Shown here piece after piece: positions 16,259 through 31,329 of a stretch of 64,000 nucleotides of DNA. A program made the translations under genes and the position numbers. The DNA is from Maritimibacter sp. HL-12. Lineage in GTDB: Bacteria > Pseudomonadota > Alphaproteobacteria > Rhodobacterales > Rhodobacteraceae. Position 1 is the stretch's first letter, and each line of letters starts with the position of its first letter. The notes under the pieces were generated by a model. It was not told the origin of the DNA, ran no database searches, and saw only the letters and a list, made by a program, of their open reading frames with translations. Location of the stretch: assembly GCF_900177545.1 (NCBI RefSeq), contig NZ_FXBQ01000001.1:3194163-3258162 (forward strand). The letters are read 5' to 3'.

Positions 16259-16636
16259 GTGACCCGGCGCGAGGCCGCACGCGAAGAGGCGCATTTCCAG
16301 GTGCTGCGCCTGCTCGGGGACAACCCCGAACTCAGCACCCGCGAGATCGCCGACGCGGTGGGGGTGTCGAACGGCTCAGCCTATTACCTGCTGAAGGCGC
16401 TCGCCGAGAAGGGATTCGTGAAATTCGAGCGGTTCATCTCGTCGAGCCACAAGGGGCGCTACGCCTACATCCTGACACCGAAGGGCCTGTCGGAGAAATC
16501 CCGCCTCACGGCGCGGTTCCTCGGCCGCAAGCTCAAGCAATACGAGGCGCTGCAGGAAGAGATCGCCGAGCTTCGGCGTGATCTGGAGGGGGCGGGGGAC
16601 GCAGGTGGCGTGGTGGCGGGGAAGTCGGGGGAGTGA
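16259..16636 (+). CDS. MarR-family EPS-associated transcriptional regulator
   Basis: The 125-residue protein is a single winged helix. A recognition region LSTREIADAVGVSNGSAYYLLKALAEKGFVKFERF at about residues 25-58 is followed by a wing (RYAYILTPKG) and a charged coiled tail (KLKQYEALQEEIAELRRDLE) likely used for dimerisation. This layout matches the small MarR-like regulators found next to exopolysaccharide clusters in proteobacteria. It starts with GTG. It is the first gene of the surface polysaccharide region, so it probably controls the genes that follow. The ligand is unknown. Confidence 0.8.
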   Translation: MTRREAAREEAHFQVLRLLGDNPELSTREIADAVGVSNGSAYYLLKALAEKGFVKFERFISSSHKGRYAYILTPKGLSEKSRLTARFLGRKLKQYEALQEEIAELRRDLEGAGDAGGVVAGKSGE

Positions 16637-16763
16637 AGCGGTGTGGTGTGTGTGTTGCGTTATCGGGCGTTTGGGGGGGATTGCATGCATATGGGAGAGG
16701 CGTCCGGCGGAGCATGTCATGGTGGTAATCGAAGCATGAATCCGGTGATGATCCCGATTGACC

Positions 16764-18122
16764 ATGTCGGGGACGTCCGAAAGCAAGGGCATGGCCTTGG
16801 CTGACGTGCCGGACAGCCGCACTTTGAGGAACCGCGTCTCTGCGCGCCTGTTCGGCGGTGCCTCTGGTGGGGTGTTCCGCGGGATGGCGACACTGGCCCT
16901 CGGGAGCGGCATCGGCCGGGTGATCGGGATTGCCGCTATCCCGATCCTGACGCGGCTCTACAGCCCTGAGGATTTCGGCGTCCTGGCCGTCTTCACTGCG
17001 CTGGTGGCAATCCTCGCGCCGCTGGTCACGCTGCGCTATGTGCTGGCACTGCCCTTGCCGCGCCATGACGGGGTGGCAATGAACCTGTTGGCGATCTCGG
17101 TCGGGCTGATGCTGGTGCTCTCGGCTGTGGTCGCGCTGGCGTTGTGGTTGGGGGGCGAGGCGCTGCTGGGCCTTGTCTCGATGCAGGTTCTGGCACCGTG
17201 GTGGTGGTTAATCGCGCTCGGCGTTCTGGGCACGGCGACCTATGAGATGCTGACGCTCTGGGCCACGCGTAAGCGCGCCTACAAGGTGATCGCGCAAACC
17301 AAAGTTACGCAGAGTGCTGCGGGTGCGGTGATCAAGATCGCGCTCGGTCTTGCTTCGCTCCAGCCGCTGGGGCTGCTGGTGGGGCAGGTGGTGGCACAGG
17401 CGGGCGGGATCGGAAGGTTGATGCGCGGGTTCCTGTCCGAGTTCCGGGCGTCTTGGCGTCATGTCAGCAGGTCGCGGATGAGGAAAGCCGCTAGGCGGCA
17501 CAGGGGATTTCCGATCTGGCGGGTGCCTTCGCAGTTTCTGATGGTTTTCTCAGTGCAGGCACCGATGTTGTTCATAGCTGCACTCTACGATCCGCAGACG
17601 ACGGGACAGTTCGGTTTGGCGGTTATGGCGCTCTCGGTGCCAATAAACCTGCTCGGACGCACCACCTCGCAAGCGTTTTTCGCCGAGGCGTCATTACTTG
17701 GAGCGCGACGCTCTAGCGAGATCAGGACGATGTTGAAATCGGTCATGTTTCGCCTGGGAGCCGTTTCGGTGCTCCCCGCTTTGGTCCTCCTCGTGTTCGG
17801 CGAGCCGCTTTTCGCGTTTTTGTTCGGAGGCGAATGGGTCCAGGCTGGCTTGTTCGCGCAAGCGCTCGCAATCTATCTCTTCTTCCAGTTTATCCAGGCC
17901 CCCGTGGCGCATGTTTTCAATATCTTTGATGGGCATCGGCAGTTGCTGTTTCTCAATGTTCAGCGGGTTGCATTGATTGCCGCCGTGTTCGGCATGTCAC
18001 ATGGTCTGTCCTGGACATCAGAATTCGCGGTATGGGCATATGCCCTGACGCTTTCGCTGCACTATGCCTTGAGCGCGGTCTATGCCTATCGCTTTATCCC
18101 AATCAGGTCTCGGGGAAGATAG
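16764..18122 (+). CDS. Wzx-type polysaccharide flippase (MATE/MVF-fold)
   Basis: The roughly 452-residue integral membrane protein has about 12-14 hydrophobic segments. The N-terminal pattern GSGIGRVIGIAAIPILTRLYSPEDFG is diagnostic of the polysaccharide-biosynthesis flippases that move undecaprenyl-linked repeat units across the inner membrane. Starts are ambiguous: TTG at 16758, ATG at 16764, or ATG at 16791; the last has an AAGGG just upstream. It ends one base before the MurA-like gene begins, so they are in one transcription unit. Base composition begins to fall in its second half. Confidence 0.88.
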   Translation: MSGTSESKGMALADVPDSRTLRNRVSARLFGGASGGVFRGMATLALGSGIGRVIGIAAIPILTRLYSPEDFGVLAVFTALVAILAPLVTLRYVLALPLPRHDGVAMNLLAISVGLMLVLSAVVALALWLGGEALLGLVSMQVLAPWWWLIALGVLGTATYEMLTLWATRKRAYKVIAQTKVTQSAAGAVIKIALGLASLQPLGLLVGQVVAQAGGIGRLMRGFLSEFRASWRHVSRSRMRKAARRHRGFPIWRVPSQFLMVFSVQAPMLFIAALYDPQTTGQFGLAVMALSVPINLLGRTTSQAFFAEASLLGARRSSEIRTMLKSVMFRLGAVSVLPALVLLVFGEPLFAFLFGGEWVQAGLFAQALAIYLFFQFIQAPVAHVFNIFDGHRQLLFLNVQRVALIAAVFGMSHGLSWTSEFAVWAYALTLSLHYALSAVYAYRFIPIRSRGR

Positions 18123-19391
18123 ATGGAACTCATCACAAACGGCAGGAGCAGCCTAAATGGCAGCGTAACGGTTAGCGGAGCTAAAAACTCGGCGACAAGA
18201 GTATTGGCCGCTGCACTGCTGAGCGAAGAAAGCGTCACGCTGAGGAATTTTCCACTCGAATTGGAAGACGTAAAGTCAAAAATGGCTTTCATCAGGGCAA
18301 TGGGTGCGCTTCTGATCATTGATCCCGAAAACGAAGAACTTCGCATCGATGGCCGTGATCTTGGTTTTGACCAGATTACCGATTTTGAGCTCCCTATCCG
18401 AACCACCTATCTGCTCGCAGGTGGTGCCTTGGCGCGCCACGGTCATGCGCGCGTACCCTACCCGGGGGGGTGCAAAATCGGTAGCCGTGGCTATGATTTG
18501 CACATCATGGTATGGGAATCCTTGGGCTGCAAAGTCGAGGAGAAGCCGAATTATATAGAGATAGCAGGGTACCTGCGCGGTGGCGAGATTGACTTTCCTA
18601 TCTCGACCGTTGGAGGAACTGAAAACGCACTGATTTGTGCAGCCGTAGCTCAAGGTAGCACCAATATTCGCAATGCTTATGTAACTCCTGAAGTTCAGGA
18701 TCTGATCAGTTTTCTCATAGAGATGGGCGCGCGCATCAAGCTGGAAGGCAGTAGTCACATTCATGTTGAGGGCGCAGCGGGGTTGCTAGGCAGCGCAACG
18801 TTCTCAATCATGCCGGACCGAATTGAAGCGCTGACTTGGATTGTGCTTGGCGCAGTGAATGGCGGGCGGATTCTAATTCGGAACGTGCCGTTTGATACCA
18901 TGCAAGTCCCGCTTATCCATTTACGAGATGCAGGTTTGGACTTTTTTGCAAACAGCGATACAGTGCTGGTTGGCCCGGATTGTATAGGCCCTCATGGATT
19001 GCAGCCTTTCGAACTTGCAACAGGAACACATCCCGGCGTGATTTCTGATATGCAGTCCTTTTTTGTTTTTTTGGCGTTGTTCGCCAACGGTCGATCTATT
19101 GTTCATGATTATCGCTACCCTGAACGGATCGCCTACGTACGGGAACTCGCAAATTTTGCTCCGGGGGCAGTTGACGCGGAACCTTCACGGATAACGGTTC
19201 GAGGTCCAGTGAAGCTTACCGGTTCGAAAACCAGATCGACTGACCTCAGGGGTAGCATGGCCCAAATCATGGCGGCGCTTTGTGCTGAAGGCTCCAGCCG
19301 AGTTGAAGGTGTCGAAATGGCATTGCGCGGATACAACCGACTACCAGAAAAACTGCGCTCGCTTGGGGCGGATGTGAAATGGACCAGCTGA
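18123..19391 (+). CDS. MurA-like UDP-N-acetylglucosamine 1-carboxyvinyltransferase in polysaccharide cluster
   Basis: The 422-residue protein is a full-length EPSP synthase-fold enzyme of the MurA family, which adds enolpyruvate from PEP to the 3-OH of UDP-GlcNAc. Family catalytic residues are retained: Lys21-Asn22 in SGAKNSA, Cys117 in PGGCKIG (the fosfomycin-target cysteine), Asp in ISDMQS, and the C-terminal Arg in RGYNRLPEKL. One deviation is SRGYDLH where MurA usually has ARPVDLH. Its GC content is visibly lower than that of the housekeeping genes to the left. It sits between a flippase and a MurB-like gene and overlaps the latter by 13 bases. It is probably a dedicated paralogue for the glycan rather than the cell-wall enzyme; that is inference from context. 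Confidence 0.88.
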   Translation: MELITNGRSSLNGSVTVSGAKNSATRVLAAALLSEESVTLRNFPLELEDVKSKMAFIRAMGALLIIDPENEELRIDGRDLGFDQITDFELPIRTTYLLAGGALARHGHARVPYPGGCKIGSRGYDLHIMVWESLGCKVEEKPNYIEIAGYLRGGEIDFPISTVGGTENALICAAVAQGSTNIRNAYVTPEVQDLISFLIEMGARIKLEGSSHIHVEGAAGLLGSATFSIMPDRIEALTWIVLGAVNGGRILIRNVPFDTMQVPLIHLRDAGLDFFANSDTVLVGPDCIGPHGLQPFELATGTHPGVISDMQSFFVFLALFANGRSIVHDYRYPERIAYVRELANFAPGAVDAEPSRITVRGPVKLTGSKTRSTDLRGSMAQIMAALCAEGSSRVEGVEMALRGYNRLPEKLRSLGADVKWTS

Positions 19392-20356
19392 ACGAGGCCG
19401 CTATCGCCGAGCTAACCGCGCTTTGCCCCGGTGGCGTTGCGCGTGATGTGGACCTTTCCGCAATCAGCCGATGGCGGATCGGCGGGCGCGCTGATCTGGT
19501 GCTGCGTCCGTCATCGACTGCGGAAGTTTCGGCATTGATGCGTTGGTTTTCGGCACAAGGCATCCGACCCGTCGTGATCGGCCTGACCAGCAACCTGCTC
19601 TTTGACGATGCCGGGCTGCGTGCCCCCTGCATCCAGATCGGGGAACGCATGGCGCATGTTAACATCAAAGGTCAGCAGGCATGGGCCCAAGCCGGGGCCT
19701 GGGTCCCGGGGTTTGCACGCAAGCTCATGCAGGCCTGGCTCAGTGGTGCCGAGCATATTTGCGGCATTCCCGGCACCTTGGGGGGGTTGATCTGCATGAA
19801 TGGCGGCAGCCAGCGAAAGGGTATCGGTAGCAGTATTGTGGAGGTAGAGAGCGTGGACGCTACGGGCAAGGTCCGCAACCGGCCAGCGCAGGACTGCGCT
19901 TTCGGCTATCGCCAATCGGTGTTCCAGACGAATGGCGAGATCATCACCGCCGCCAGCCTGCGTTTTTCGTCCCGCCCGCGCGCGGAAATTCGATCCGAGA
20001 TGCGTACGATCCTCGCCGAGAGGCGCCGCAAGTTCCCGCGCAAGGAGCCCAATTGCGGGTCAGTCTTCAAATCAAACCCTGCAATGTATGCCGAGATCGG
20101 CCCGCCGGGCGCTGCGATCGAACGTTTGGGTTTCAAAGGGGCACGCGAAGGTGGCGCACTCGTTTCACCACAGCACGCGAACTTCATCGTAAACACGGGC
20201 AGAGCCACGGCTACCGAAGTACTGACGTTGATCGCCCGTATCGGCAGTGCAGTCGAGGCGGCGACAGGTTACCGTATGGCGGCCGAGGCGTGCTTCGTAC
20301 AGGCCGACGGCACCATCCAGCCCGCTGACACCGTCTTGAATGAGATCACCATATGA
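19379..20356 (+). CDS. MurB-like UDP-N-acetylenolpyruvoylglucosamine reductase in polysaccharide cluster
   Basis: The 325-residue flavoprotein matches MurB, which reduces enolpyruvyl-UDP-GlcNAc to UDP-N-acetylmuramic acid with NADPH. The FAD domain has WRIGGRADLVLRPSS and GLTSNLLFDDAG. The middle has GIPGTLGGLICMNGG and the Tyr-Arg pair GYRQSVF. The proton-donating Ser228 lies in NCGSVFKSNP, and the late Glu303 is in AAEACFV. The order LGFKGAREGGALVSPQHANFIVN fits type II MurB. It overlaps the MurA-like gene by 13 bases and the next glycosyltransferase by four, showing tight coupling. The two enzymes together imply UDP-MurNAc production within a surface polysaccharide operon. Confidence 0.88.
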   Translation: MDQLNEAAIAELTALCPGGVARDVDLSAISRWRIGGRADLVLRPSSTAEVSALMRWFSAQGIRPVVIGLTSNLLFDDAGLRAPCIQIGERMAHVNIKGQQAWAQAGAWVPGFARKLMQAWLSGAEHICGIPGTLGGLICMNGGSQRKGIGSSIVEVESVDATGKVRNRPAQDCAFGYRQSVFQTNGEIITAASLRFSSRPRAEIRSEMRTILAERRRKFPRKEPNCGSVFKSNPAMYAEIGPPGAAIERLGFKGAREGGALVSPQHANFIVNTGRATATEVLTLIARIGSAVEAATGYRMAAEACFVQADGTIQPADTVLNEITI

Positions 20357-21180
20357 CCGAAGCGCCGCCCAAGGTCTCTGTTGTCTGCGCCTGGTATAAC
20401 CGCGCCGACTTCATCCGCGACACGATCGACAGCCTGCTCGCACAGGATTATCCCAATTTCGACATTACCGTCGTCAATGACGGCAGCCCCGACCCACGTG
20501 TGCGCGAGATACTCGACAGCTATGACGACCCCCGCCTGCGTGTAATTCATCAGGACAACACAGGTTTCACGCGCGCCATCCGTCGCGCGATCGATGAGAG
20601 TGATGGAGAATACATAGCGATACAAGGGGCCGGGGATTTGTCGTTGCCGCGGCGGTTGTCCGCGCAGGTTGAAGCGATCACAATAGATAATAGATTCTCA
20701 ATTGTAGGATGTTGGTATTCAGACCAAAGCGAAAACAGTGAATCCGAAGTGCTACGGCGTCCCGAAGCATCTTGCGAGAGACAAATGGCCTATTTCATGT
20801 TCTCGCAAGGTGAGCTGATGTATCGTAGGAAAACGTATGATAGTGTTGGGGGCTATCGAACATTATTCACCGTCGGCCAAGGAGCTGATTTATGGATGCG
20901 GATGCTTAGGACAACAACCTCATACGTCCTGGAAGACAAACTGTATATCCGGCGTTTGTTCGCAGATGGCGTTTCCAATAATTCCAGAAAACTACGTCTA
21001 CGGAATGAACTAACCAAATTAAGAATAGCTAGTGAAATATACTATAGAAGAACAAATATTGATCCAATTGACGAATATGGGCAGTACGCACCATTATTTC
21101 TATTTAAGGCGACATATTCTGTAAGAGTGTTCCTTGGATTGGAGGTGCTCCGCAATTTTTTCAGGTTCCCAAGAAAATGA
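20353..21180 (+). CDS. GT2-family glycosyltransferase
   Basis: The 275-residue protein has a GT-A fold start (KVSVVCAWYNRADFIRDTIDSLL) and VVNDGS nucleotide loop. The usual metal-binding DxD region reads IQGAGDLSLPRRL, so only one acidic residue remains; a subset of GT2 enzymes has this GxGD form. It transfers a sugar from a nucleotide donor during repeat-unit assembly; donor and linkage are unknown. The ATG overlaps the MurB-like stop (ATGA). Base composition drops sharply to AT-rich about 300 bases into this gene (near 20640), suggesting a recombination junction within it. Confidence 0.85.
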   Translation: MTEAPPKVSVVCAWYNRADFIRDTIDSLLAQDYPNFDITVVNDGSPDPRVREILDSYDDPRLRVIHQDNTGFTRAIRRAIDESDGEYIAIQGAGDLSLPRRLSAQVEAITIDNRFSIVGCWYSDQSENSESEVLRRPEASCERQMAYFMFSQGELMYRRKTYDSVGGYRTLFTVGQGADLWMRMLRTTTSYVLEDKLYIRRLFADGVSNNSRKLRLRNELTKLRIASEIYYRRTNIDPIDEYGQYAPLFLFKATYSVRVFLGLEVLRNFFRFPRK

Positions 21181-22067
21181 CTTTCAGCGTTGTAATTCCC
21201 GTTCACAATAAAGAAGCATACATTGCAAGATCAATTGAATCCGTGCTTGCGCAGGAGTTTCAGGATTTCGAAATTCTAGTCGTCGAAGATGCTTCTACAG
21301 ATGCAAGCGCAAGAATCATAGAGTCATTGGTGGATGATCGTATAACTATCATTAAAAGATTCAGACCCGGTCCAGGAGGATACCTTGCAAGAAATGAAGG
21401 AGCAGACAAAGCAATTGGAGATTGGATCGTATTTCTGGATGCAGATGATGAGTGGGATCGAAATCATCTCTCAACGTTAGACGAGTTAATCAGTAAGTAT
21501 CCTAAAGCTGACTTTTTAGCAACAGGATATCGCGTTTGTGATGGGCGTCGGGTCAAGGAGGTTCACGTTCCTTATGAATGCTCTTTTTCTCCTTGCAAGG
21601 CGCTAAAGAGAATCCTCCATGTAGACTATATACATACCAACTCTACTTGTATACGTCGGTCTCTGTATAAGCGCGTAGAAGGCTTCAATACAAAGATGGG
21701 GTGGAAGCGTGGTGGCGATACTGAGTTTTGGCTTAGACTTATCTCATCTGCGAGGGAAACAGCGTTCTCCGACAAAGTTACTACTACGTGGAAATATGAC
21801 CGGAGCGAAATTACAAGAGCGAATATACCTCATGACCTTCAACATCCTGTTATTACGCACCTAAATTCACACAGTTTATCCGGATTTATTCATTGCCAAG
21901 GAGTTTTAAAATCATACGTTTTCAAAAAGTGGTTAACATGGGAAGTGCTTAGAAGCAAGGGGTTCGTGAGGATTCTATGGATTGCTATATTGGTTCCGAC
22001 GCATCCCATCGTGTCCGTGCGTTTTTTTGTAGATGCCATTGTAAGAGGCCTTAGCCGAATTTGGTAA
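21177..22067 (+). CDS. GT2-family glycosyltransferase
   Basis: The 296-residue protein has a canonical GT2 layout: FSVVIPVHNKEAYIARSIESVL, VVEDASTD, and the metal-binding FLDADDEWDRNHL. It also has a downstream acceptor-side GWKRGGDTEFWLRL motif, where the ED/GD pair supplies the catalytic base region. The gene is AT-rich relative to the genome. It overlaps the previous glycosyltransferase by four bases. Its stop is followed directly by decayed transposase sequence, so insertion may have happened just behind it. Confidence 0.88.
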   Translation: MTFSVVIPVHNKEAYIARSIESVLAQEFQDFEILVVEDASTDASARIIESLVDDRITIIKRFRPGPGGYLARNEGADKAIGDWIVFLDADDEWDRNHLSTLDELISKYPKADFLATGYRVCDGRRVKEVHVPYECSFSPCKALKRILHVDYIHTNSTCIRRSLYKRVEGFNTKMGWKRGGDTEFWLRLISSARETAFSDKVTTTWKYDRSEITRANIPHDLQHPVITHLNSHSLSGFIHCQGVLKSYVFKKWLTWEVLRSKGFVRILWIAILVPTHPIVSVRFFVDAIVRGLSRIW

Positions 22068-22109
22068 AACGAATCTTTTTATAGGAAGTGGACCACCTTG
22101 TATGGGGCG

Positions 22110-22715
22110 TTCTAGCGCCATGGATCGCCGCACTTGATGTTCAGATGAGCCGGGGTTAAGATCGAAGGCGGAGACGAGTGACTCACCCGCCAGCACATTG
22201 GCCTCAATAGGGGCTGGTGCAAATGAAGCTCAGCATCACCGAAGAACCGCTGGAGATACGCGCCGTCGAGTTTACTGGTCGCCATATCCGTGTCGCCCCG
22301 CTGGTTCCCGGTTTCTCTGTCGGATCGCAGATGACAAGGAGACAGGAAACGGTGCGGGAGACGGTGCTTAAGAGCCTAGAATCTACCATGATGCCCTCGG
22401 GCATCGCTGCGCTTATGCTTACAATCCGTCCCCACAGGAACGAGTAGCCCCGGACGACACTCATGGCCGGAGCGAAGGATCAAAACTTGGCCTTGAAGAA
22501 ACCAAAAAAACCCGAAAAGCCCTCTGGAAACCATGAAGTGAGTATTCCCGCCAAGACTGGGAATATACTAAGAAGCTTGATGTGAAACTGCAGAGCCTAC
22601 GGTTCATGGCTTGGTACTACTCCCACCAGGTTCCAGACTTCCGAGTTCGGACGGCCGTGTTGAAACGCTACACGCGTGCCGGGAGTTTTATCACAGTAAT
22701 CGCGAGATTGGTCTG
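22110..22715 (+). pseudogene. Decayed IS5-family transposase
   Basis: Three reading frames together recover the second half of an IS5-type DDE transposase. Around 22120-22215 one frame reads AGVKIEGGDE, stop, LTRQHIGLNRG, which parallels the usual STGIKVEGEGEWNARKHGG. From 22223 another frame reads MKLSITEEPLEIRAVEFTG, like the family's KVHIGIDEETLEIRAVEV. A third frame, about 22515-22710, gives ALWK...SEYSRQDWEYTKKLD and VRTAVLKRYT, like LWRRWSGYHRRSRVETKMH and VRVAVLNRYT. Multiple stops and frameshifts mean no active protein. No terminal inverted repeats were recognised. Limits are approximate. Confidence 0.7.
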
Positions 22716-22864
22716 TCCTTGGGAAAGGGAAACCCGGCAATCATCCCTTCGTTTACCAAAGCCAATTCTCTATGCTAAGTGTTCACTTGTGAAAGGAAAA
22801 ATTGTGCGTTTGTGTGAAATACAATGCCTATAGAGATTGCTATCATTTGGGGAATTCAGTTGGG

Positions 22865-23947
22865 ATGAAGTGCGTACTTCATTTTTGCGTGGAAGAGTCA
22901 AACCGCGCTACAGATTTCGGTGGTGGTGTGGGTGGCTATACAACATACACCAATAGATTGATTGCAGCGCAAGACAGTTTCCTAAAAAGTGGCTTTGAGA
23001 TGCATTTTTCTCGAGTGACTCCCCCACTCAAATTGAAGCCAAAACTTCTTGTGGATTTGTTTAAGTTACTTTTTGATGCAGGTCGAGCTCTGTATTCCAT
23101 GTTTAGATATCGTCCAGACGTGATCCACATACATGGAATGTACTGGCGATCAACATATCGCGAAGTAATTTTTTTGGTTTTGGGGCGCATATTTTCTGCA
23201 AACGTCTTCTACGAAGCGCGAGGCGGGTCATTCTCCGAGTGTATTCAGCATCGAAGTTTGCAAGGGCATCTCGCACGGTTCTTGCTTAGAAGTGCTCAAG
23301 TCGTGTCGATCCAGGGGGAAAAGGAGATTGGTTCTCTGGCAGGTATTGCGGGTAGATCTATCTTGTACATGCCCAATGTAATTAGCCCACAACTTGAACG
23401 GATGCGATTTGAGAACAAGAAGTTTAGCGAGCGTGACGTTGACTTTTGTTTCCTTGGCTATGTGTCGCGAGCAAAGAATATTGAGCTATTCTTCAACATT
23501 GCAGAGCTGAATCCAGACAAAAAATTCACTTGCATAGGGTTCGTGGAGAGGGGCTTGTTGGATGCGGTTAGTCTACCCAAGAATGTGAGTTTGCTCGGTA
23601 GATTGGATAAAGTCGATGCATTTCGAGTGCTTCAAAACACAAAGTTCTTCCTTTTTCCAAGTAAAATGAGAAGCGAGGGTCAACCAAACGCAATTCTTGA
23701 GGCGATCTGGGCTGGGTGCGTTCCTATTGCATTCAATCACGGCTTCATCGCTGATCTTATTCAAGATGAAACGTTGATGCTTGATCCAAATGTGGAGGAT
23801 CTGACAGCCTTGAACAATCAAGTCATGAAGCTGTACAGAATGAAAGACAAGACCAATAGATCACATCGTTCGGAGTTGATAAGTTTCACGCGGTCGCACG
23901 CCGAAGTTGAAAGATTGATTGAGGTCTACCGTCACTTAGTTAAGTAA
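22865..23947 (+). CDS. GT4-family glycosyltransferase (GT-B fold)
   Basis: The roughly 360-residue protein has the N-terminal glycine loop GGGVGGYTTYTNRLI and a typical VIHIHGMYWRS strand. The C-terminal donor domain has the E-x7-E signature in SEGQPNAILEAIWAGCVPIAF, which binds the nucleotide sugar. These features place it in retaining GT4 enzymes used in O-antigen/EPS synthesis. The frame is open upstream to 22802, but the ATG at 22865 (MKCVLHF) puts the glycine loop at the normal distance from the start. It follows the transposase remnant, is AT-rich, and probably depends on its own promoter or on read-through. Confidence 0.85.
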   Translation: MKCVLHFCVEESNRATDFGGGVGGYTTYTNRLIAAQDSFLKSGFEMHFSRVTPPLKLKPKLLVDLFKLLFDAGRALYSMFRYRPDVIHIHGMYWRSTYREVIFLVLGRIFSANVFYEARGGSFSECIQHRSLQGHLARFLLRSAQVVSIQGEKEIGSLAGIAGRSILYMPNVISPQLERMRFENKKFSERDVDFCFLGYVSRAKNIELFFNIAELNPDKKFTCIGFVERGLLDAVSLPKNVSLLGRLDKVDAFRVLQNTKFFLFPSKMRSEGQPNAILEAIWAGCVPIAFNHGFIADLIQDETLMLDPNVEDLTALNNQVMKLYRMKDKTNRSHRSELISFTRSHAEVERLIEVYRHLVK

Positions 23948-24259: not shown

Positions 24260-25492
24260 ATGACTGACAACTGCGGTTCGCTCGGTGGTCGCCACTCGAA
24301 GTCTGTACCGGCTTCCTCGATTCCATTTGGCTTCTTTTTACTTGCACTGTTGTTCAACCCGTGGAATTCAGCCCTGATGTCAAGCTTTCGCGCAAATGAT
24401 CTTTTTTTGCTTGCGAGTCTTTTGACAATCATTCCTCTTAAACGGGTTTCTGGTGTATTTCTGTTGCTTTGGTACATTTGGATGGTGATTCTTCTGGTTT
24501 CGCTAACACGGTCGTCGCTGGTTTCGTACCCGCACGATTTGTCTCGATTAGCTTTCTTTTACAAGTATAGCTTAATATTTTTTGTTCCATTGGTTTTTTT
24601 GGCGCTTGTGGATCGAGTTTCCCGTCTTCGTTTAGTCGAGGTATTTGTGTTTGTCACCTTTGTATTCTTGATTGCTTGGGCATACTTTTATCCAATCGCC
24701 ATCAATCGCGGTGTGCTAATTGGCGTCTCGAGGGCTAGTTTCCCAGGCCCAGCAAGTTTTGAGATCTCCGACGCCCACCTATACAGCAACTACCTTGCGG
24801 TTAGTCTCTTATACTATATGATTTACTATCAAAAGATTAGGCGGCACAGCGCATTCCTGACATTTGCGGTAGTGTTGAGCGCGCTCGGTGCGCTAGTTTT
24901 GACTGGCAGCAGGAACGGGTTTGTTGTGCTCGGACTTGGCGGTGTTGTTTGGTTTTTGTTTGTTGGTTCGTTTCGATCGCGGGTTTCAAAAGGGGTGGCT
25001 TTTCGAGTGTTGGCGTTGGTTGTTGTTTCGGCAATGCTGTCGATTGCTTTTTGGGAACAGATTTCCGATTTTCTTGGCGGCGCCGCTGCGCGTGCTTTCA
25101 ATTTTTCGTTTGGTAGTGATGCGAGCGCCCAGAATCGTCTGGTTTTGCTCGGTGTCGCTGTGGACGACATGATTCATTCGTCAGTTTTGTTCGGTGCCAG
25201 TTTAATTGGCGCGTCTGTACTTTGGTATGACAGTGGCTTTGGAATCTTGCTCGCTCACTCGGGTTTCGCGGGTGTTATCTATATTGTTTTTTTGTTGTTA
25301 TTGTTTTTCTTGCTTTATTTCCCGCTTAGACTACGAATTGAGTACAGGACGAGTTTGGTTTTGTTTATTGTTTATGCGTTTTCAAATATGATTACAGAGT
25401 TTGCATTGGTGACCCGAAGTGTTCTGCCGAGTATTGTCTGCATCATGATCCCACTTGTTTCGGCTAATCTGCGTAAGAAGGTTGTCAAATAG
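24260..25492 (+). CDS. Wzy-like O-antigen polymerase/ligase family membrane protein
   Basis: The 410-residue protein is strongly hydrophobic with about ten to twelve membrane segments and a large periplasmic loop in the second half. The stretch VLTGSRNGFVVLGLGG matches the TGSR.G motif that marks the Wzy/WaaL superfamily. Such proteins either polymerise lipid-linked repeat units or ligate them; with a Wzx-type flippase in the same cluster, polymerase is the better guess. The gene is strongly AT-rich. Two ATGs four bases apart precede it, and I take the one that opens the frame (MTDNCGS). Confidence 0.8.
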   Translation: MTDNCGSLGGRHSKSVPASSIPFGFFLLALLFNPWNSALMSSFRANDLFLLASLLTIIPLKRVSGVFLLLWYIWMVILLVSLTRSSLVSYPHDLSRLAFFYKYSLIFFVPLVFLALVDRVSRLRLVEVFVFVTFVFLIAWAYFYPIAINRGVLIGVSRASFPGPASFEISDAHLYSNYLAVSLLYYMIYYQKIRRHSAFLTFAVVLSALGALVLTGSRNGFVVLGLGGVVWFLFVGSFRSRVSKGVAFRVLALVVVSAMLSIAFWEQISDFLGGAAARAFNFSFGSDASAQNRLVLLGVAVDDMIHSSVLFGASLIGASVLWYDSGFGILLAHSGFAGVIYIVFLLLLFFLLYFPLRLRIEYRTSLVLFIVYAFSNMITEFALVTRSVLPSIVCIMIPLVSANLRKKVVK

Positions 25493-25611: not shown

Positions 25612-26397
25612 ACCCCTTCTATAGGTTTCCAAACCAAAATAGTTTTCGTCTTCATTGCCGCCTACAACTCGCAGACGACGATCGGCGATTCCGTTGAGTT
25701 CTTCCCCTCTCAGGACCGCCTTGACATGGAGTTAATTGTCATTGACGGTGCGTCTGAGGACGGCACTTGCGCGATTGTCGAGGGGTTCAACAGTCCCACT
25801 ATTAGATTTTGCAGCCAATCCGACCAAGGCATCTACGACGCTCAAAACAAAGGCATGGCGTTGGTCGACGGGGAGATGACCGGCCTTTCGCATACCGATG
25901 ACCTGTTTGCACGGCAGAGCGTTCTAGCTCAGGTGGCGAAGGCGTTTGGATCAGGCAATATCGATGGTGTCTACGGCGACCTGGAGTATGTCGCCCGCGA
26001 CTGTCCCGGCCGTGCGAGCCTCGATTGGCGTGTAGGGGCTTGCAGTCCGAAGCCGCTGCGCAAGGATTGGATGCCACCGCACCCTTTGCTGTTTCTGCGC
26101 CGCGACGTGTTTGAGAAGCACGGGAGCTATGAGATCGGTTTTCGCGTTGCGACCGATTTTGAGGCAATCCGGCGGTGGTTGACCAAGGGGAAGCTTCGAT
26201 TGGCATATAGTCCTGTAGTCCTGTTTCGAATTCGGGTTGGGGACGAGAGCTACCGGTCTCTAGGTTGGGTTATCTGCAAAAGCCGCGAAGTTTTACGCGC
26301 TTTCCGCCGGTATAGCATTGGAGGGCGCGGGTTTTGTTGGCCAAGAACCTCAGCAAGCTATGTCAATTCACAAGTCGGGAAAGTGCCCAGAATATGA
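25612..26397 (+). CDS. GT2-family glycosyltransferase (WcaE-like), start codon unresolved
   Basis: The frame gives a complete GT2 N-terminus, KIVFVFIAAYNSQTTIGDSV from 25636, then ELIVIDGASEDGT, SDQGIYDAQNKG and the HTDD metal region. Yet between the upstream stop at 25609-25611 and this domain there is no ATG, GTG or TTG. The first ATG in frame (25726) would cut off the first beta strand. An ATG at 25608 is in the neighbouring frame, so a one-base indel near 25620-25635 would explain the problem. The gene may be frameshifted, use a non-standard start, or reflect a sequencing error. The downstream two thirds looks intact, and base composition recovers toward the genome mean within it. Confidence 0.7.
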   Translation, partial: TPSIGFQTKIVFVFIAAYNSQTTIGDSVEFFPSQDRLDMELIVIDGASEDGTCAIVEGFNSPTIRFCSQSDQGIYDAQNKGMALVDGEMTGLSHTDDLFARQSVLAQVAKAFGSGNIDGVYGDLEYVARDCPGRASLDWRVGACSPKPLRKDWMPPHPLLFLRRDVFEKHGSYEIGFRVATDFEAIRRWLTKGKLRLAYSPVVLFRIRVGDESYRSLGWVICKSREVLRAFRRYSIGGRGFCWPRTSASYVNSQVGKVPRI

Positions 26398-26412: not shown

Positions 26413-27534
26413 ATGACGAAACGTGCGCTCATCACGGGTATCACAGGCCAAGACGGCAGCTATCTGGCTGAGTTTCTCCTCGAGAAAGGCTACGAAGTCC
26501 ACGGCATCAAACGACGGGCGTCGTCGCTCAACACTCAGCGGATCGACCACATCTACGAGGACCCGCATGAGCCGAACCCCAAGCTCAAACTGCATTACGG
26601 TGATCTTACGGATACCTCCAACCTCACCCGCGTCATCTCGGAGATTCAACCTGATGAGGTCTACAACCTTGGGGCGCAGAGCCATGTGGCGGTGAGTTTC
26701 GAGAGCCCGGAGTATACGGCGGATGTCGATGGGATCGGCACGCTGCGGTTGCTTGAGGCGATCCGGTTCCTCGGGCTCCAGGAGAAAACGCGCTTCTACC
26801 AGGCGTCGACCTCTGAACTGTTCGGCCTCGTGCAGGAAACCCCCCAGCGCGAGACCACGCCGTTTCACCCGCGCTCGCCCTATGCCGTCGCCAAGCTCTA
26901 TTCCTACTGGATCACGGTGAACTACCGCGAGGCTTACGGGATGTATGCCTGCAACGGGATCCTGTTCAATCACGAGAGCCCGCGCCGGGGCGAGACCTTT
27001 GTGACCCGCAAGATCACCCGGGGGCTTGCCAATATCGCGCAAGGTCTCGAGGATTGCCTCTACATGGGCAACATCGACGCGAAGCGCGATTGGGGCCACG
27101 CAAAGGACTACGTCCGCATGCAGTGGATGATGCTTCAGCAGAACGAGGCGGAGGATTTCGTGATCGCGACGGGGGTGCAATACTCGGTGCGCGAATTCAT
27201 CGACTGGTCGGCAAGGGAGCTGGGGATCCGCTTGCGGTTTGAGGGCGAGGGAGTCGACGAGATCGGGATCGTCGAGGCGGTCGAGGGCGAGAACGCGCCC
27301 GAGGTGAAGCCCGGTGACGTGATCCTGCGGATTGACCCGCGATATTTCCGCCCCGCCGAAGTCGAAACCCTGCTTGGTGATCCCTCCAAGGCTAAGCAGA
27401 AGCTTGGCTGGGAGCCGGAGATCACCACGCGCGAGATGTGCGCAGAGATGGTGGCCGAAGATCTGAAGTCCGCCAAGCGCCACGCCTTGCTGAAAGCGCA
27501 TGGGTTGGAACTTCCGGTCTCGTTTGAGAACTGA
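26413..27534 (+). CDS. gmd: GDP-mannose 4,6-dehydratase
   Basis: The 373-residue enzyme converts GDP-mannose to GDP-4-keto-6-deoxymannose, the first step to GDP-L-fucose and related sugars. It has the SDR cofactor loop [20 protein letters not shown]. The catalytic Tyr-Lys lies in [12 protein letters not shown], and the family block [19 protein letters not shown] is present. Its high GC matches the chromosome, unlike the glycosyltransferases before it. It is followed ten bases later by fcl, so the two enzymes are co-expressed. Confidence 0.97.
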
Positions 27535-27544
27535 GGGTGACGCG

Positions 27545-28504
27545 ATGAAAACCTACGTTGCAGGCCACCGCGGCATGGTGGGTGGGGCGATCCTTCGCAA
27601 GCTCGAAGCGCGCGGGATCGAAACCGTCACCCGCACCCATGCGGAGTTGGACCTCACCAGCCAGGCCGAGGTGCGCGATTTCATGAAATCCGAAAAGCCC
27701 GGCCGGGTGATCCTCGCCGCCGCCAAGGTGGGCGGGATCATGGCCAACAACACCTATCCGGCTGCGTTCATCTATGAAAACCTGATGATCGAGGCCAACG
27801 TGATCCACCAGGCCTTCGAGGCCGGGGTGCATAGCCTGTTGTTCCTGGGCTCGTCCTGCATCTATCCCAAGATGGCCGCGCAGCCGATGCGCGAAGACGC
27901 GCTTCTGACTGGCACGCTTGAGCCCACCAACGAGCCCTATGCCATTGCCAAGATCGCCGGGATCAAGCTTTGCGAGAGCTACAACCGGCAATACGGCACG
28001 GATTACCGCTCTGTCATGCCCACCAATCTCTACGGGCCGGGTGACAACTTTCATCCTCAGAACAGCCACGTTTTGCCCGCGCTGATCCGGCGGTTTCACG
28101 AAGCGGCGCGTGGTGGCGTTGATGAGGTTGTGGTCTGGGGCACCGGCACGCCGATGCGCGAGTTCCTTCATGTCGACGACATGGCCGAAGCCTCGCTCTT
28201 CGTCGCGGATCTCGCGCCCGAGATCTACGAACGCGAGACCGAGCCGATGCTGAGCCACATCAACGTCGGCACCGGCAGCGACGTGACAATCCGCGAGCTC
28301 GCCGAAACGGTGGCCCGGGTCACCGGCTTTGACGGCAAGATCACCTTCGACGCCAGCAAGCCCGATGGAACGCCGCGCAAGCTTCTGGACGTGAGCCGGC
28401 TCGCGCGGCTTGGCTGGACGGCGCGGATCGCGCTCGAAGACGGTATCCGCGAGACCTATGACTGGTTTCTTGAACAACGCGATGACGGCCTCAGGATGGC
28501 CTGA
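27545..28504 (+). CDS. fcl: GDP-L-fucose synthase
   Basis: The 319-residue SDR epimerase-reductase makes GDP-L-fucose from GDP-4-keto-6-deoxymannose. Its cofactor loop is [12 protein letters not shown]. The SSCIYPKMA segment holds the catalytic Ser/Cys region, and [16 protein letters not shown] holds the Tyr-Lys pair. The ATG at 27545 follows directly on gmd; an in-frame upstream start overlaps the gmd end and is not conserved-looking. Together with gmd, manC and manB this completes the route from mannose 6-phosphate to GDP-L-fucose. Confidence 0.97.
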
Positions 28505-28550
28505 TATCGCGTAGAGGTTGAATGACCGAGTACAGGAAGGAAGTTTCTCG

Positions 28551-29972
28551 ATGATCACGCCCGTCCTTCTCAGCGGCGGCTCCGGCACCCGGCTCTGGCC
28601 GCTGTCGCGCAAGTCCTACCCCAAGCAATTCGTGCCTCTGGTCGGTGACGAGACGCTGTTCCAGGCTTCGGCGCGGCGGCTCTCGGGGGCGGGGTTCGCG
28701 GTGCCGCTGGTGCTCACCAATGCCGATTTCCGCTTCATCGTGACCGAGCAGCTTGGCGCGATCGGGATTGATCCGGGCGCTGTGCTGATCGAACCCGAGG
28801 GGCGCAACACCGCGCCCGCCGTGCTCGCCGCCGCGCTCTGGCTCGAGCAGGCCGACCCGGACGGGCTGATGCTGGTGGCGCCGTCGGATCACGTGGTGCC
28901 CGATGCGGCAGCCTTCCGCGCGGCGGTGGAGATCGGCCGCGCGGCGGCGGAGGCGGGCAAGCTGGTGACCTTCGGGATCACCCCCGACCGCGCAGAGACC
29001 GGCTATGGCTACCTCGAGCTTGGCGAGCGCCTCGATCCGGGCGCGCCGCGGCTGATGGACCTTGTGCGGTTCGTCGAAAAACCCGACGCCGCAAGCGCCG
29101 CCGAGATGGTCGCCACCGGGCGGCACTTGTGGAACGCAGGCATCTTTCTGTTCTCGGTCCGGGCAATCATCGACGCGTTCAAGGCCCATGCGCCGGAGCT
29201 TGTGGGGCCGGTGGGCGATGCGGTTGCGAAGGGCCGGGCCGATCTGGGCTTCCACCGGCTCGATCCGGCGGCCTGGGCCACGGTCGAGGATATCTCGATC
29301 GACTACGCGGTGATGGAGCGGGCGGGCAACCTCGCGGTGGTGCCCTTCGCCGCCGGGTGGTCCGATCTCGGCGGCTGGGATGCGGTCTGGCGTGAAAGCG
29401 GGCCGAACGGCGATGGCGTGGCCACAGCAGGCAACGCCACGGCGATCGACTGCCACAACACGCTCCTGCGCTCGGAGGATGAAAATCTCGAAGTCGTCGG
29501 CCTCGGGCTTGAGGGCATCATCGCCGTGGCGATGCCCGATGCGGTGCTCATCGCCCACAAGGACCGCGCGCAAGAGGTCAAGGCAGCGGTGACGGCGCTC
29601 AAAGCCAAGAACGCGCGCCAGGCGGAATCCTTCCCGCGCGATCACCGGCCCTGGGGCTGGTTCGAAAGCCTGGTGATCGGCGAGAGGTTCCAGGTCAAGC
29701 GTATCGTCGTGCATCCCGGCGCGGCGCTGAGCCTGCAATCGCACCACCACCGCGCCGAGCATTGGATCGTGGTGCATGGCACCGCCAAGGTGACCATCGA
29801 GGACCGCGTCGATCTCGTGAGCGAGAACCAGTCGATCTACATCCCGCTCGGGCAAAAGCACCGGCTGGAGAACCCCGGCAAGCTGCCGATGGTGCTGATC
29901 GAGGTTCAGACCGGGTCGTATCTCGGCGAAGACGACATCATCCGCTACGAGGACGTCTATGCCCGTGACTGA
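28551..29972 (+). CDS. manC: Mannose-1-phosphate guanylyltransferase / mannose-6-phosphate isomerase
   Basis: The 473-residue bifunctional enzyme has an N-terminal nucleotidyltransferase domain: SGGSGTRLWPLSRKSYPKQF holds the GTP-binding pyrophosphorylase loop, and FVEKPD follows. The C-terminal cupin isomerase domain (RPWGWFESL, then SLQSHHHRAEHWIVV) carries the metal histidines. It supplies GDP-mannose to gmd. A strong AGGAAGG precedes the ATG at 28551. It overlaps manB by 14 bases. Confidence 0.97.
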   Translation: MITPVLLSGGSGTRLWPLSRKSYPKQFVPLVGDETLFQASARRLSGAGFAVPLVLTNADFRFIVTEQLGAIGIDPGAVLIEPEGRNTAPAVLAAALWLEQADPDGLMLVAPSDHVVPDAAAFRAAVEIGRAAAEAGKLVTFGITPDRAETGYGYLELGERLDPGAPRLMDLVRFVEKPDAASAAEMVATGRHLWNAGIFLFSVRAIIDAFKAHAPELVGPVGDAVAKGRADLGFHRLDPAAWATVEDISIDYAVMERAGNLAVVPFAAGWSDLGGWDAVWRESGPNGDGVATAGNATAIDCHNTLLRSEDENLEVVGLGLEGIIAVAMPDAVLIAHKDRAQEVKAAVTALKAKNARQAESFPRDHRPWGWFESLVIGERFQVKRIVVHPGAALSLQSHHHRAEHWIVVHGTAKVTIEDRVDLVSENQSIYIPLGQKHRLENPGKLPMVLIEVQTGSYLGEDDIIRYEDVYARD

Positions 29973-31329
29973 TCTGACCTGCTTCAAGGCCTACGATATC
30001 CGCGGGCGTCTTGGCGAGAACCTCGACGAAGACATCGCCCGGCGGATCGGGGCGGGGTTCGCCAAGGCGCTCGGCGCGCGTAAAGTGGTGCTCGGGCGCG
30101 ATATCCGGGCCTCGTCGGAGGCGCTTTCGGCCGCCGTGGCCGAGGGGCTCACGGGGCAGGGGGTGGAGGTGCTCGATCTGGGCCTGTCGGGCACCGAGGA
30201 GATGTATTTCGCAACCACGCATTTCGGCGCGGATGGCGGCATCTGCGTGACCGCCTCGCACAACCCGATGGATTACAACGGGATGAAGATGGTGAAGGCG
30301 GGATCGGCCCCGCTCGATCCGGCCACGGAACTGGCGCGGGTCAAGGCGATGGCCGAGGCCGACCTTGCGCCGGTCGCCACGCGCGGTGAGGGTCTGCCCG
30401 CCGAGGGCGCGCGCGCAGCTTACATCGCCCGCGTGCTCTCTTTTGTCGATATCGCGGCGCTGAAACCGCTGAAGCTGCTCGTCAATGCCGGCAACGGCGC
30501 TGCGGGGCCGACCTTCGATGCGATCCTTGAGGCGCTGGTCGCGCAGGGCGCGCCGCTCGAAGTGGAGCGCCTGCACCACGATCCCGACCCGAGTTTTCCG
30601 AACGGCATCCCGAACCCGCTGCTCGATGAGAACCAGCCCGTCACCGGCGCGGCTGTCCGCGCCCAAGGCGCCGATCTCGGCATTGCCTGGGACGGCGATT
30701 TCGACCGCTGCTTCCTGTTCGACGCCGAGGGCCGCTTCATCCCCGGAGAATACGTGGTCGGGCTGCTCGCCGAGGCCTTCCTCGTCAAGGAACCGGGGGC
30801 AAAGATCGTCCACGACCCCCGCGTGGTCTGGAACACGCAAGACATCGTCGCCCGCCTCGGCGGCGAGGCAGTGCAATCACGCACCGGCCACGCCTTCGTC
30901 AAACAGGTGATGCGCGAGACGCGCGCGGTCTACGGCGGCGAAATGTCGGCGCATCACTATTTCCGCGACTTCATGGCCTGCGATTCAGGGATGATCCCCT
31001 GGCTGCTGGTGATCGAACTCATGAGCCGACGCGGCCAGCCGCTCGCCGCCCTCGTCGATGACCGCCGCGCCGCCTTTCCCTCGTCGGGCGAGATCAACTT
31101 CCGGGTGGATGACGTGGCCGATGTGATTGCCCGCATCGAGGCGACCTATGCCCCCGACGCCACGACCCGCGACGACACCGACGGGCTTTCGCTTGCCTTC
31201 GACACCTGGCGCTTCAACCTGCGCGCCTCGAACACCGAGCCGCTGCTCCGGCTGAACGTGGAGGCGCGGGGAGATGCGGACCTGCTCGCAGCCCGTGTGG
31301 AGGAATTGCGCGCGCTGATCGAGACGTGA
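29959..31329 (+). CDS. manB: Phosphomannomutase
   Basis: The 456-residue alpha-D-phosphohexomutase converts mannose 6-phosphate to mannose 1-phosphate. The phosphoserine loop is TASHNPMDYNG and the Mg2+ loop is DGDFDRC. The sugar-specificity loop is GGEMSAHHYF, with Glu and Ser as in phosphomannomutase/phosphoglucomutase. The C-terminal phosphate-binding loop RASNTEPLLRLN is present. It is the last gene of the polysaccharide cluster and is followed by a small GATCAT/ATGATC repeat but no clear terminator. Confidence 0.97.
   Translation: MPVTDLTCFKAYDIRGRLGENLDEDIARRIGAGFAKALGARKVVLGRDIRASSEALSAAVAEGLTGQGVEVLDLGLSGTEEMYFATTHFGADGGICVTASHNPMDYNGMKMVKAGSAPLDPATELARVKAMAEADLAPVATRGEGLPAEGARAAYIARVLSFVDIAALKPLKLLVNAGNGAAGPTFDAILEALVAQGAPLEVERLHHDPDPSFPNGIPNPLLDENQPVTGAAVRAQGADLGIAWDGDFDRCFLFDAEGRFIPGEYVVGLLAEAFLVKEPGAKIVHDPRVVWNTQDIVARLGGEAVQSRTGHAFVKQVMRETRAVYGGEMSAHHYFRDFMACDSGMIPWLLVIELMSRRGQPLAALVDDRRAAFPSSGEINFRVDDVADVIARIEATYAPDATTRDDTDGLSLAFDTWRFNLRASNTEPLLRLNVEARGDADLLAARVEELRALIET

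Follow-up and report, generated by a model that had tools for sequence, protein, structure and literature searches.

Why would a bacterium keep a second pair of peptidoglycan-precursor genes among genes for surface polysaccharide, and which sugar would such a pair make? The question is raised by a 64,000-nucleotide stretch of the Maritimibacter sp. HL-12 genome (contig NZ_FXBQ01000001.1, positions 3,194,163 to 3,258,162; hereafter the window), which contains adjacent genes for a MurA-like and a MurB-like protein, here designated murA2 and murB2. The pair is well supported as accessory because an ordinary murA and an ordinary murB are present elsewhere in the genome, and it probably makes a lactyl-ether sugar for an exopolysaccharide and not for the cell wall.

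The two open reading frames (18123-19391 and 19379-20356), both with Pfam and structure matches, are intact and overlap by 13 bases, as a first-pass annotation of this DNA had described. A search of the whole genome (2 contigs, 99.91% complete) revealed one other murA (C2:995616-996857; 33% identity to MurA2, 553.1 bits with TIGR01072) and one other murB (C2:2867519-2868346; 31% identity to MurB2), the latter grouped with murC, ddl, ftsA, and ftsZ. TIGR01072 has one more match in the genome, a third of only 27 bits that is presumably aroA. The expectation of the first-pass annotation that the cell-wall copies lie elsewhere was thereby borne out. Among 21 genomes (that of the window and those of the 20 loci described below), another murA above the equivalog cut-off was found in 20; the Pelagicoccus genome has a second murA copy, yet below that cut-off. 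At least two MurB genes are present in all 21 genomes but G400 (that of locus L014), which has one.

By sequence, the nearest solved structure for MurA2 is 1uae (E 1.7e-71), which we take to be E. coli MurA, and that for MurB2 is 4pyt (E 4.8e-35). MurA2 is homologous to 1uae over its whole length. It differs from E. coli MurA (36% identity) in sitting in a polysaccharide cluster and in scoring 350.9 bits with the murA equivalog model TIGR01072, below the cut-off of 392.7; with the subfamily model PRK09369 it scores 368 bits (cut-off 297). MurB2 exceeds the cut-off of the equivalog model TIGR00179 (153.4 bits, cut-off 144.5) and falls below that of PRK13905 (250.6 bits, cut-off 259). Like 4pyt and 1hsk (the latter presumably S. 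aureus MurB), it has flavin adenine dinucleotide (FAD)-binding and MurB_C domains with the catalytic Ser and Glu.

Relatives and descent of the pair

Relatives were found by scanning genome contigs with MurA2 as query. The twenty loci obtained (L008-L027) are 53-80% identical to MurA2, with more than 61% in L008 and L009 only, and belong to Alphaproteobacteria, Gammaproteobacteria, Bacteroidota, Verrucomicrobiota, and Actinomycetota. A MurB homologue lies at most 2.5 kilobases (kb) downstream in 19 of them (not in L014; the L027 genes are in pieces), and one is nearby in 28 of the 30 accessory loci (the window, L008-L027, L068, L069, L073-L077, L112, and L115). In the stretches fetched for the two exceptions, L014 and L076, an accessory MurA stands with no MurB homologue. 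Polysaccharide families (glycosyltransferase, flippase, Wzc- or Wza-like) occur within 10 kb in 20/20 loci, as called from similarity clusters with one representative per cluster scanned with Pfam; the link is a single Poly_export-type cluster for L026 and a GT2 match for L027. With the accessory status of the pair, this neighbourhood supports the earlier suggestion that it serves a secreted glycan.

Two loci deserve separate description. The accessory murA and murB of L027 (10001-12196, Halomonas sulfidaeris record) are broken across several frames; sequencing errors are possible since the other murA of that genome is also in two pieces. A Rhodospirillales metagenome-assembled genome (G395) contains pairs of both accessory sub-clades, L009 and L075, on different contigs.

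Sixteen plasmid records were examined out of 121 matched at E <= 1e-20. Plasmid pOT1-6 of Haematobacter massiliensis carries overlapping murA-murB inside a polysaccharide cluster, a Qingshengfaniella alkalisoli plasmid murA-murB-GT2, an Agrobacterium sp. MA01 plasmid the order murB-murA, and a Rhizobium sp. CC1099 plasmid a clade MurA. In the 15 kb viewed of the Qingshengfaniella plasmid, the sole polysaccharide candidate beside murA-murB-GT2 has the acetyltransferase EpsC as its best match, below the cut-off. Among the 10 phage matches listed of 41, identity is at most 36%.

The clade is sporadic across the five bacterial groups and rare. Within the window's family it was found in 4/394 genomes, one of them the window's own (E <= 1e-70); for the Alteromonas order the count is 2/394, the central genome of the search among them (E <= 1e-80), and for the Dyadobacter class 1/295, which is the central genome itself (E <= 1e-80). 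In the window's class, 3/385 genomes matched (E <= 1e-70), of which G1244 belongs to the housekeeping type, judged by its loop and its position in the tree. At most a handful of candidates was scored per genome after a loose first pass, so some clade copies may have been missed in these counts.

In the first MurA tree (50 rows), the 27 accessory MurAs formed one clade (support 100/99) with sub-clades of 21 rows, including the window, and 6 rows (Qingshengfaniella, Rhizobium, Agrobacterium, and three other loci). Because long rows disturbed this tree, it was rebuilt with Firmicutes and other controls and minus five rows that were long or very divergent (the long row L124 was kept). One branch then separated 29 accessory from 28 other MurAs (98/93; 200/200 bootstrap trees), and the Firmicutes MurAs (Listeria, Priestia, Enterococcus; fetched with 500-base flanks) fell on the non-accessory side. 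Plasmid matches from Legionella, Sphingomonas, and Qipengyuania and the genome match G1244 were rejected as clade members, since they group with the housekeeping type. The fragmented L027 was left out of the trees, and L005-L007 were replaced by longer stretches.

Gene and species histories conflict: Microbacterium (Actinomycetota) and the Haematobacter plasmid group together with support of 100/99. In the tree of the MurB partners, a main clade of 18 rows (100/100), window included, partners both MurA sub-clades, and a second clade of 7 rows (100/99) is entirely from Bacteroidota; L019, although also from Bacteroidota, carries the main type instead. It is well supported that the pair has moved horizontally between distant bacteria and is tied to surface polysaccharide.

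Substrate pockets and the predicted product

The catalytic residues named in the first-pass annotation are all present (K21, N22, and C117 of MurA2; S228 and E303 of MurB2). Across the clade, Lys22, Asn23, Arg91, Cys115, Arg120, Asp305, Asp369, Arg371, and Arg397 (E. coli numbering) are retained in 27/27 MurAs, the window protein included. MurB Ser228 and Glu303 occur in 27/27 accessory rows and in 15/16 and 16/16 housekeeping rows, respectively.

The acceptor side of the pocket is different. Position 327 is Arg in 27/27 clade MurAs and V, I, or M in 23/23 housekeeping-type MurAs; position 188 is Glu in 23/23 of the latter and S, T, or R in 27/27 of the former. Ten control MurAs have V or I at 327 (10/10) and Glu188 (9/10), and two further clade MurAs have Arg327 with T or R at 188. 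The totals are Arg327 in 29/29 clade members vs. 0/33 others, and Glu188 lost in 29/29 and retained in 32/33. MurA2, in which Arg331 and a Thr occupy these positions, lacks the hydrophobic 327 and Glu188 of the housekeeping-type pocket. We take residue 327 to touch uridine diphosphate (UDP)-N-acetylglucosamine (UDP-GlcNAc). Residues 121 and 161, presumably on the UDP side, are altered in most clade MurAs; 121 is variable among housekeeping MurAs as well. Pro329 was dropped as a clade mark, as a Listeria MurA has it too.

The partner MurBs are altered as well. Unlike the housekeeping enzyme, the MurB2 type has Arg146 for Gly (Arg in 20/20 of this main flavour, Gly in 16/16 housekeeping MurBs), Gln145 for Tyr (17/20), Pro243 for Ala, and a one-residue insertion at 231 when aligned with 16 housekeeping MurBs. 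The Bacteroidota flavour has Arg233 in 7/7, where 16/16 housekeeping MurBs have Asn. The MurB rows leave out five housekeeping copies: L051, L062, L064 (no tblastn match), G404, and G413. The altered positions presumably correspond to the substrate-side Tyr125-Gly126 motif and Asn233 of E. coli MurB. New positive charge in MurA2 and in MurB, gained separately in each MurB flavour, would be in keeping with a substrate that bears an additional negative group.

In the pathway that we infer, from catalysis and acceptor to the role of the transferase and the entry of the lactyl sugar into the polymer, MurA2 would transfer the enolpyruvyl group of phosphoenolpyruvate to the 3-hydroxyl of a UDP-sugar, and MurB2 would reduce it to a lactyl (1-carboxyethyl) ether; the retained catalytic residues suggest such a UDP-linked product. 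A glycosyltransferase, with the adjacent GT2a as candidate, would add the lactylated, negatively charged sugar to a repeat unit that would also use guanosine diphosphate (GDP)-mannose and GDP-fucose, with Wzx as its flippase and Wzy as its polymerase. GT2a is the best candidate for this step: a homologue scoring above 90 bits was detected in 17 of the 26 other accessory loci searched; for other GT2s in those loci the range is 44 to 59 bits.

The first-pass annotation had proposed UDP-N-acetylmuramic acid (UDP-MurNAc) as the main product, with a lactyl-ether sugar as a hedge. The hedge is the safer reading, given Arg327, the loss of Glu188, and the MurB changes. Possible, although somewhat doubtful, is that the pair makes ordinary UDP-MurNAc and that the secreted polysaccharide has MurNAc itself among its residues. 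All catalytic residues are retained, the NCBIfam names are UDP-GlcNAc 1-carboxyvinyltransferase (PRK09369) and UDP-MurNAc dehydrogenase (TIGR00179), and MurNAc is known from surface glycans according to the available text of PMC4515632. However, the acceptor loop and Glu188 are altered in every clade member examined, MurA2 scores below the murA equivalog cut-off, and, with UDP-MurNAc already provided by the housekeeping pair, a further pair would serve only to raise the supply. Because the acceptor loop and MurB partner positions are changed in the clade, UDP-MurNAc is one candidate only, and a lactylated sugar other than GlcNAc, e.g., 3-O-lactyl-glucuronic acid, is at least as likely.

We prefer the reading of a horizontally acquired pair dedicated to exopolysaccharide, with a UDP-sugar other than plain UDP-GlcNAc as acceptor, and regard it as an evenly balanced call. 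Several points weigh against it. The role of residue 327 as a UDP-GlcNAc contact is taken over from E. coli MurA (UniProt entry P0A749), and Arg327 could instead adjust feedback or the binding of GlcNAc, with the sugar unchanged. The UDP-side residues are mostly MurA-like (R120, D123, and H125 in 27/27; 121 and 161 differ). No GT2a homologue was detected in 9/26 loci, some of these being short stretches, and the window's own cluster has no gene recognised as UDP-sugar-modifying. The L014 and L076 genes are without a nearby MurB, the relatives are a biased sample found with the window's own protein, and the open-access literature yielded neither biochemical nor glycan evidence on a clade member.

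A UDP-glucose dehydrogenase was considered as a discriminator of the acceptor readings and did not separate them. The L008 dehydrogenase has homologues in 24/24 genomes (E <= 1e-15; not all sorted by substrate), and a supply of UDP-glucuronic acid (UDP-GlcA) is possible in all 24. In the window's own genome, the dehydrogenase nearest to the UDP-glucose type scores 537 bits with PRK15057 (cut-off 757; 337 aa supplied). Of the dehydrogenases checked, those near murA in Bacteroidota loci L015, L021, and L022 come closest to the UDP-GlcNAc type TviB (3/3), and those of L008, L068, and L074 to the UDP-glucose type (3/3).

It might alternatively be supposed that the pair is a peptidoglycan back-up, comparable to the doubled MurA of Firmicutes, or a copy that confers fosfomycin tolerance. 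The sequence family and the retained catalytic residues would suit this, but the linkage to polysaccharide genes extends across several phyla, and the tree sets the clade apart from the MurAs of Listeria, Priestia, and Enterococcus, which have V or I at 327. The fosfomycin-reactive Cys115 is present in 27/27 clade MurAs, so these are not a Cys-to-Asp resistant form. We consider this explanation very unlikely. The presence of the cysteine makes MurA2 a plausible candidate for a second fosfomycin target.

The gene cluster in the window

The genes around the pair, all on the forward strand, are as follows (window coordinates).

16259..16636, forward: EPS (exopolysaccharide)-associated MarR-type regulator, probable cluster start (TIGR04176 MarR_EPS, 126.6 bits, cut-off 88)
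16758..18122, forward: Wzx-like flippase (Pfam Polysacc_synt_3, 56.7 bits; 62% identity to the L008 gene)
18123..19391, forward: murA2, accessory MurA, predicted enolpyruvyl transferase, sub-clade 1, 422 aa (EPSP_synthase, 193 bits)
19379..20356, forward: murB2, accessory MurB, predicted FAD-dependent enolpyruvyl reductase, flavour 1, 325 aa (MurB_C, 88 bits; FAD_binding_4, 62 bits)
20353..21180, forward: GT2a glycosyltransferase (Pfam Glycos_transf_2, 88.6 bits)
21177..22067, forward: GT2b glycosyltransferase (Glycos_transf_2, 114 bits)
22802..23947, forward: group 1 glycosyltransferase, GT4 type (Glycos_transf_1, 47.6 bits)
24260..25492, forward: Wzy-like polymerase, weak match (Wzy_C, 28.9 bits, cut-off 31.7; TIGR04370, 21.4 bits, cut-off 40)
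25612..26397, forward: GT2c glycosyltransferase, stop-to-stop frame (Glycos_transf_2, 33.8 bits)
26413..27534, forward: gmd, GDP-mannose 4,6-dehydratase (GDP_Man_Dehyd, 516.8 bits)
27500..28504, forward: fcl-like GDP-fucose synthase (Epimerase, 213 bits), the specific function suggested by its place behind gmd
28518..29972, forward: manC, GDP-mannose pyrophosphorylase/phosphomannose isomerase (TIGR01479, 578.6 bits, above cut-off)
29959..31329, forward: manB, phosphomannomutase (best match NF011943, 606 bits, below cut-off 801)

The stop codon of wzx abuts the ATG of murA2, and the murB2/GT2a and GT2a/GT2b junctions are 4-base overlaps; wzx-murA-murB-GT2a-GT2b is read as one operon because neighbouring genes abut or overlap. 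The pair does lie between a flippase and glycosyltransferases, as annotated before. With a flippase, a polymerase (weak match), glycosyltransferases, and sugar-nucleotide genes side by side, the cluster is of the Wzx/Wzy type, and a homologue of the MarR_EPS regulator likewise lies upstream of the L008 cluster.

The window cluster has no PF02397 initiating transferase of its own; the only PF02397 match of the genome (C2:2974581) is separated from the pair by about 240 kb (the WecA type was not searched). It belongs to a second polysaccharide region (C2:2955149-2975105), which also contains a Poly_export (Wza-type) gene and a UDP-N-acetylmannosamine (UDP-ManNAc) dehydrogenase. The window cluster may borrow its initiating enzyme from this region.

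The G+C content (GC) drops from about 0.66 to 0.41-0.62 across 17-28 kb of the window (murA2 0.519, murB2 0.62, whole window 0.643), and we read this stretch as an imported specificity block flanked by native DNA. Within the cluster, 734 bases (22068-22801) are without a convincing gene. A conserved N-terminus of GT2c is in frame ahead of its first ATG (25726), with no ATG, GTG, or TTG between the preceding stop and 25726; GT2c has an unusual start or a damaged 5' end.

The island base composition, the 734-base stretch, and the doubtful GT2c start would accord with a decaying remnant of an imported cluster, devoid of present function, but we hold this explanation to be extremely improbable: both pair frames are intact, and comparison with L008 gives pN 0.148 vs. 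pS 0.80 for murA2 (nonsynonymous and synonymous divergence; dS saturated) and dN/dS 0.126 for murB2. For the two Alteromonas loci, the values are 0.011 and 0.036. Both genes are kept under purifying selection.

Known chemistry and comparable enzymes

Sugars with lactyl ethers are known from chemistry. In the available text of PMC4515632, MurNAc is described in the lipooligosaccharide of Psychrobacter arcticus and cited from Yersinia ruckeri and Proteus penneri O-antigens, and the reference list adds a Vibrio vulnificus capsule; NMR signals of the MurNAc lactyl methyl group are given there as 1.40/20.0 ppm. The available parts of PMC2901825 report 3-O-(1-carboxyethyl)-D-glucuronic acid in polysaccharides of Alteromonas HYD657 and strain 1644, the HYD657 polymer also holding fucose and mannose, and lactate in this polymer is mentioned in PMC5852497. 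According to similarly partial texts, Rhodococcus capsules contain lactic ethers of rhamnose and mannose (PMC12786566), and for a Cobetia capsule only pyruvate acetals are treated (PMC11766843). The available text of these five papers and of PMC6801904 names no lactyl-group genes for polysaccharides. A murA/murB pair tied to a polysaccharide cluster was not found among the matches listed from the open-access literature, which is weak evidence of absence, subscription papers being outside its scope.

A clade with its own sequence signature offers a direct genetic handle on lactyl-ether sugars known so far from chemistry and would predict which strains make lactyl-ether polymers. It would show peptidoglycan enzymes re-used for secreted glycans, and it is a warning that "murA" and "murB" labels inside polysaccharide clusters should not be taken for cell-wall genes.

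Among comparable enzymes, NikO of nikkomycin synthesis performs a MurA-type enolpyruvyl transfer onto uridine monophosphate, according to the available text of PMC6801904. NikO (4fqd), which scores just 111 bits with MurA2, sets a precedent for the use of a different acceptor by a MurA relative. A MurA relative with Ser at 188 is encoded by L124 (3980-5260, Streptomyces sp. NBC_00161 plasmid), and the annotation places a metallophosphoesterase, two dCTP deaminases, and a glycosyltransferase downstream of it; the relative is perhaps a nucleoside natural-product enzyme with a different acceptor. Listeria likewise has an extra MurA beside its main one, but the Firmicutes MurAs (the Listeria pair, Priestia, Enterococcus) are unlike MurA2 in tree branch and in residue 327.

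A more specific and rather unlikely proposal is that the clade is a new pair making UDP-3-O-lactyl-uronic acid from UDP-GlcA or UDP-galacturonic acid (UDP-GalA), in which the new Arg residues of MurA2 and of each MurB flavour would grip the carboxylate. The pair would then be the missing route by which marine polysaccharides acquire diacidic lactyl-uronic acids, spread as a mobile murA-murB-glycosyltransferase module. The polymers of Alteromonas HYD657 and 1644, strains known here by polymer chemistry alone, represent the chemistry expected of the clade if the acceptor is UDP-GlcA, and the clade is present in other Alteromonas strains (L013, L025).

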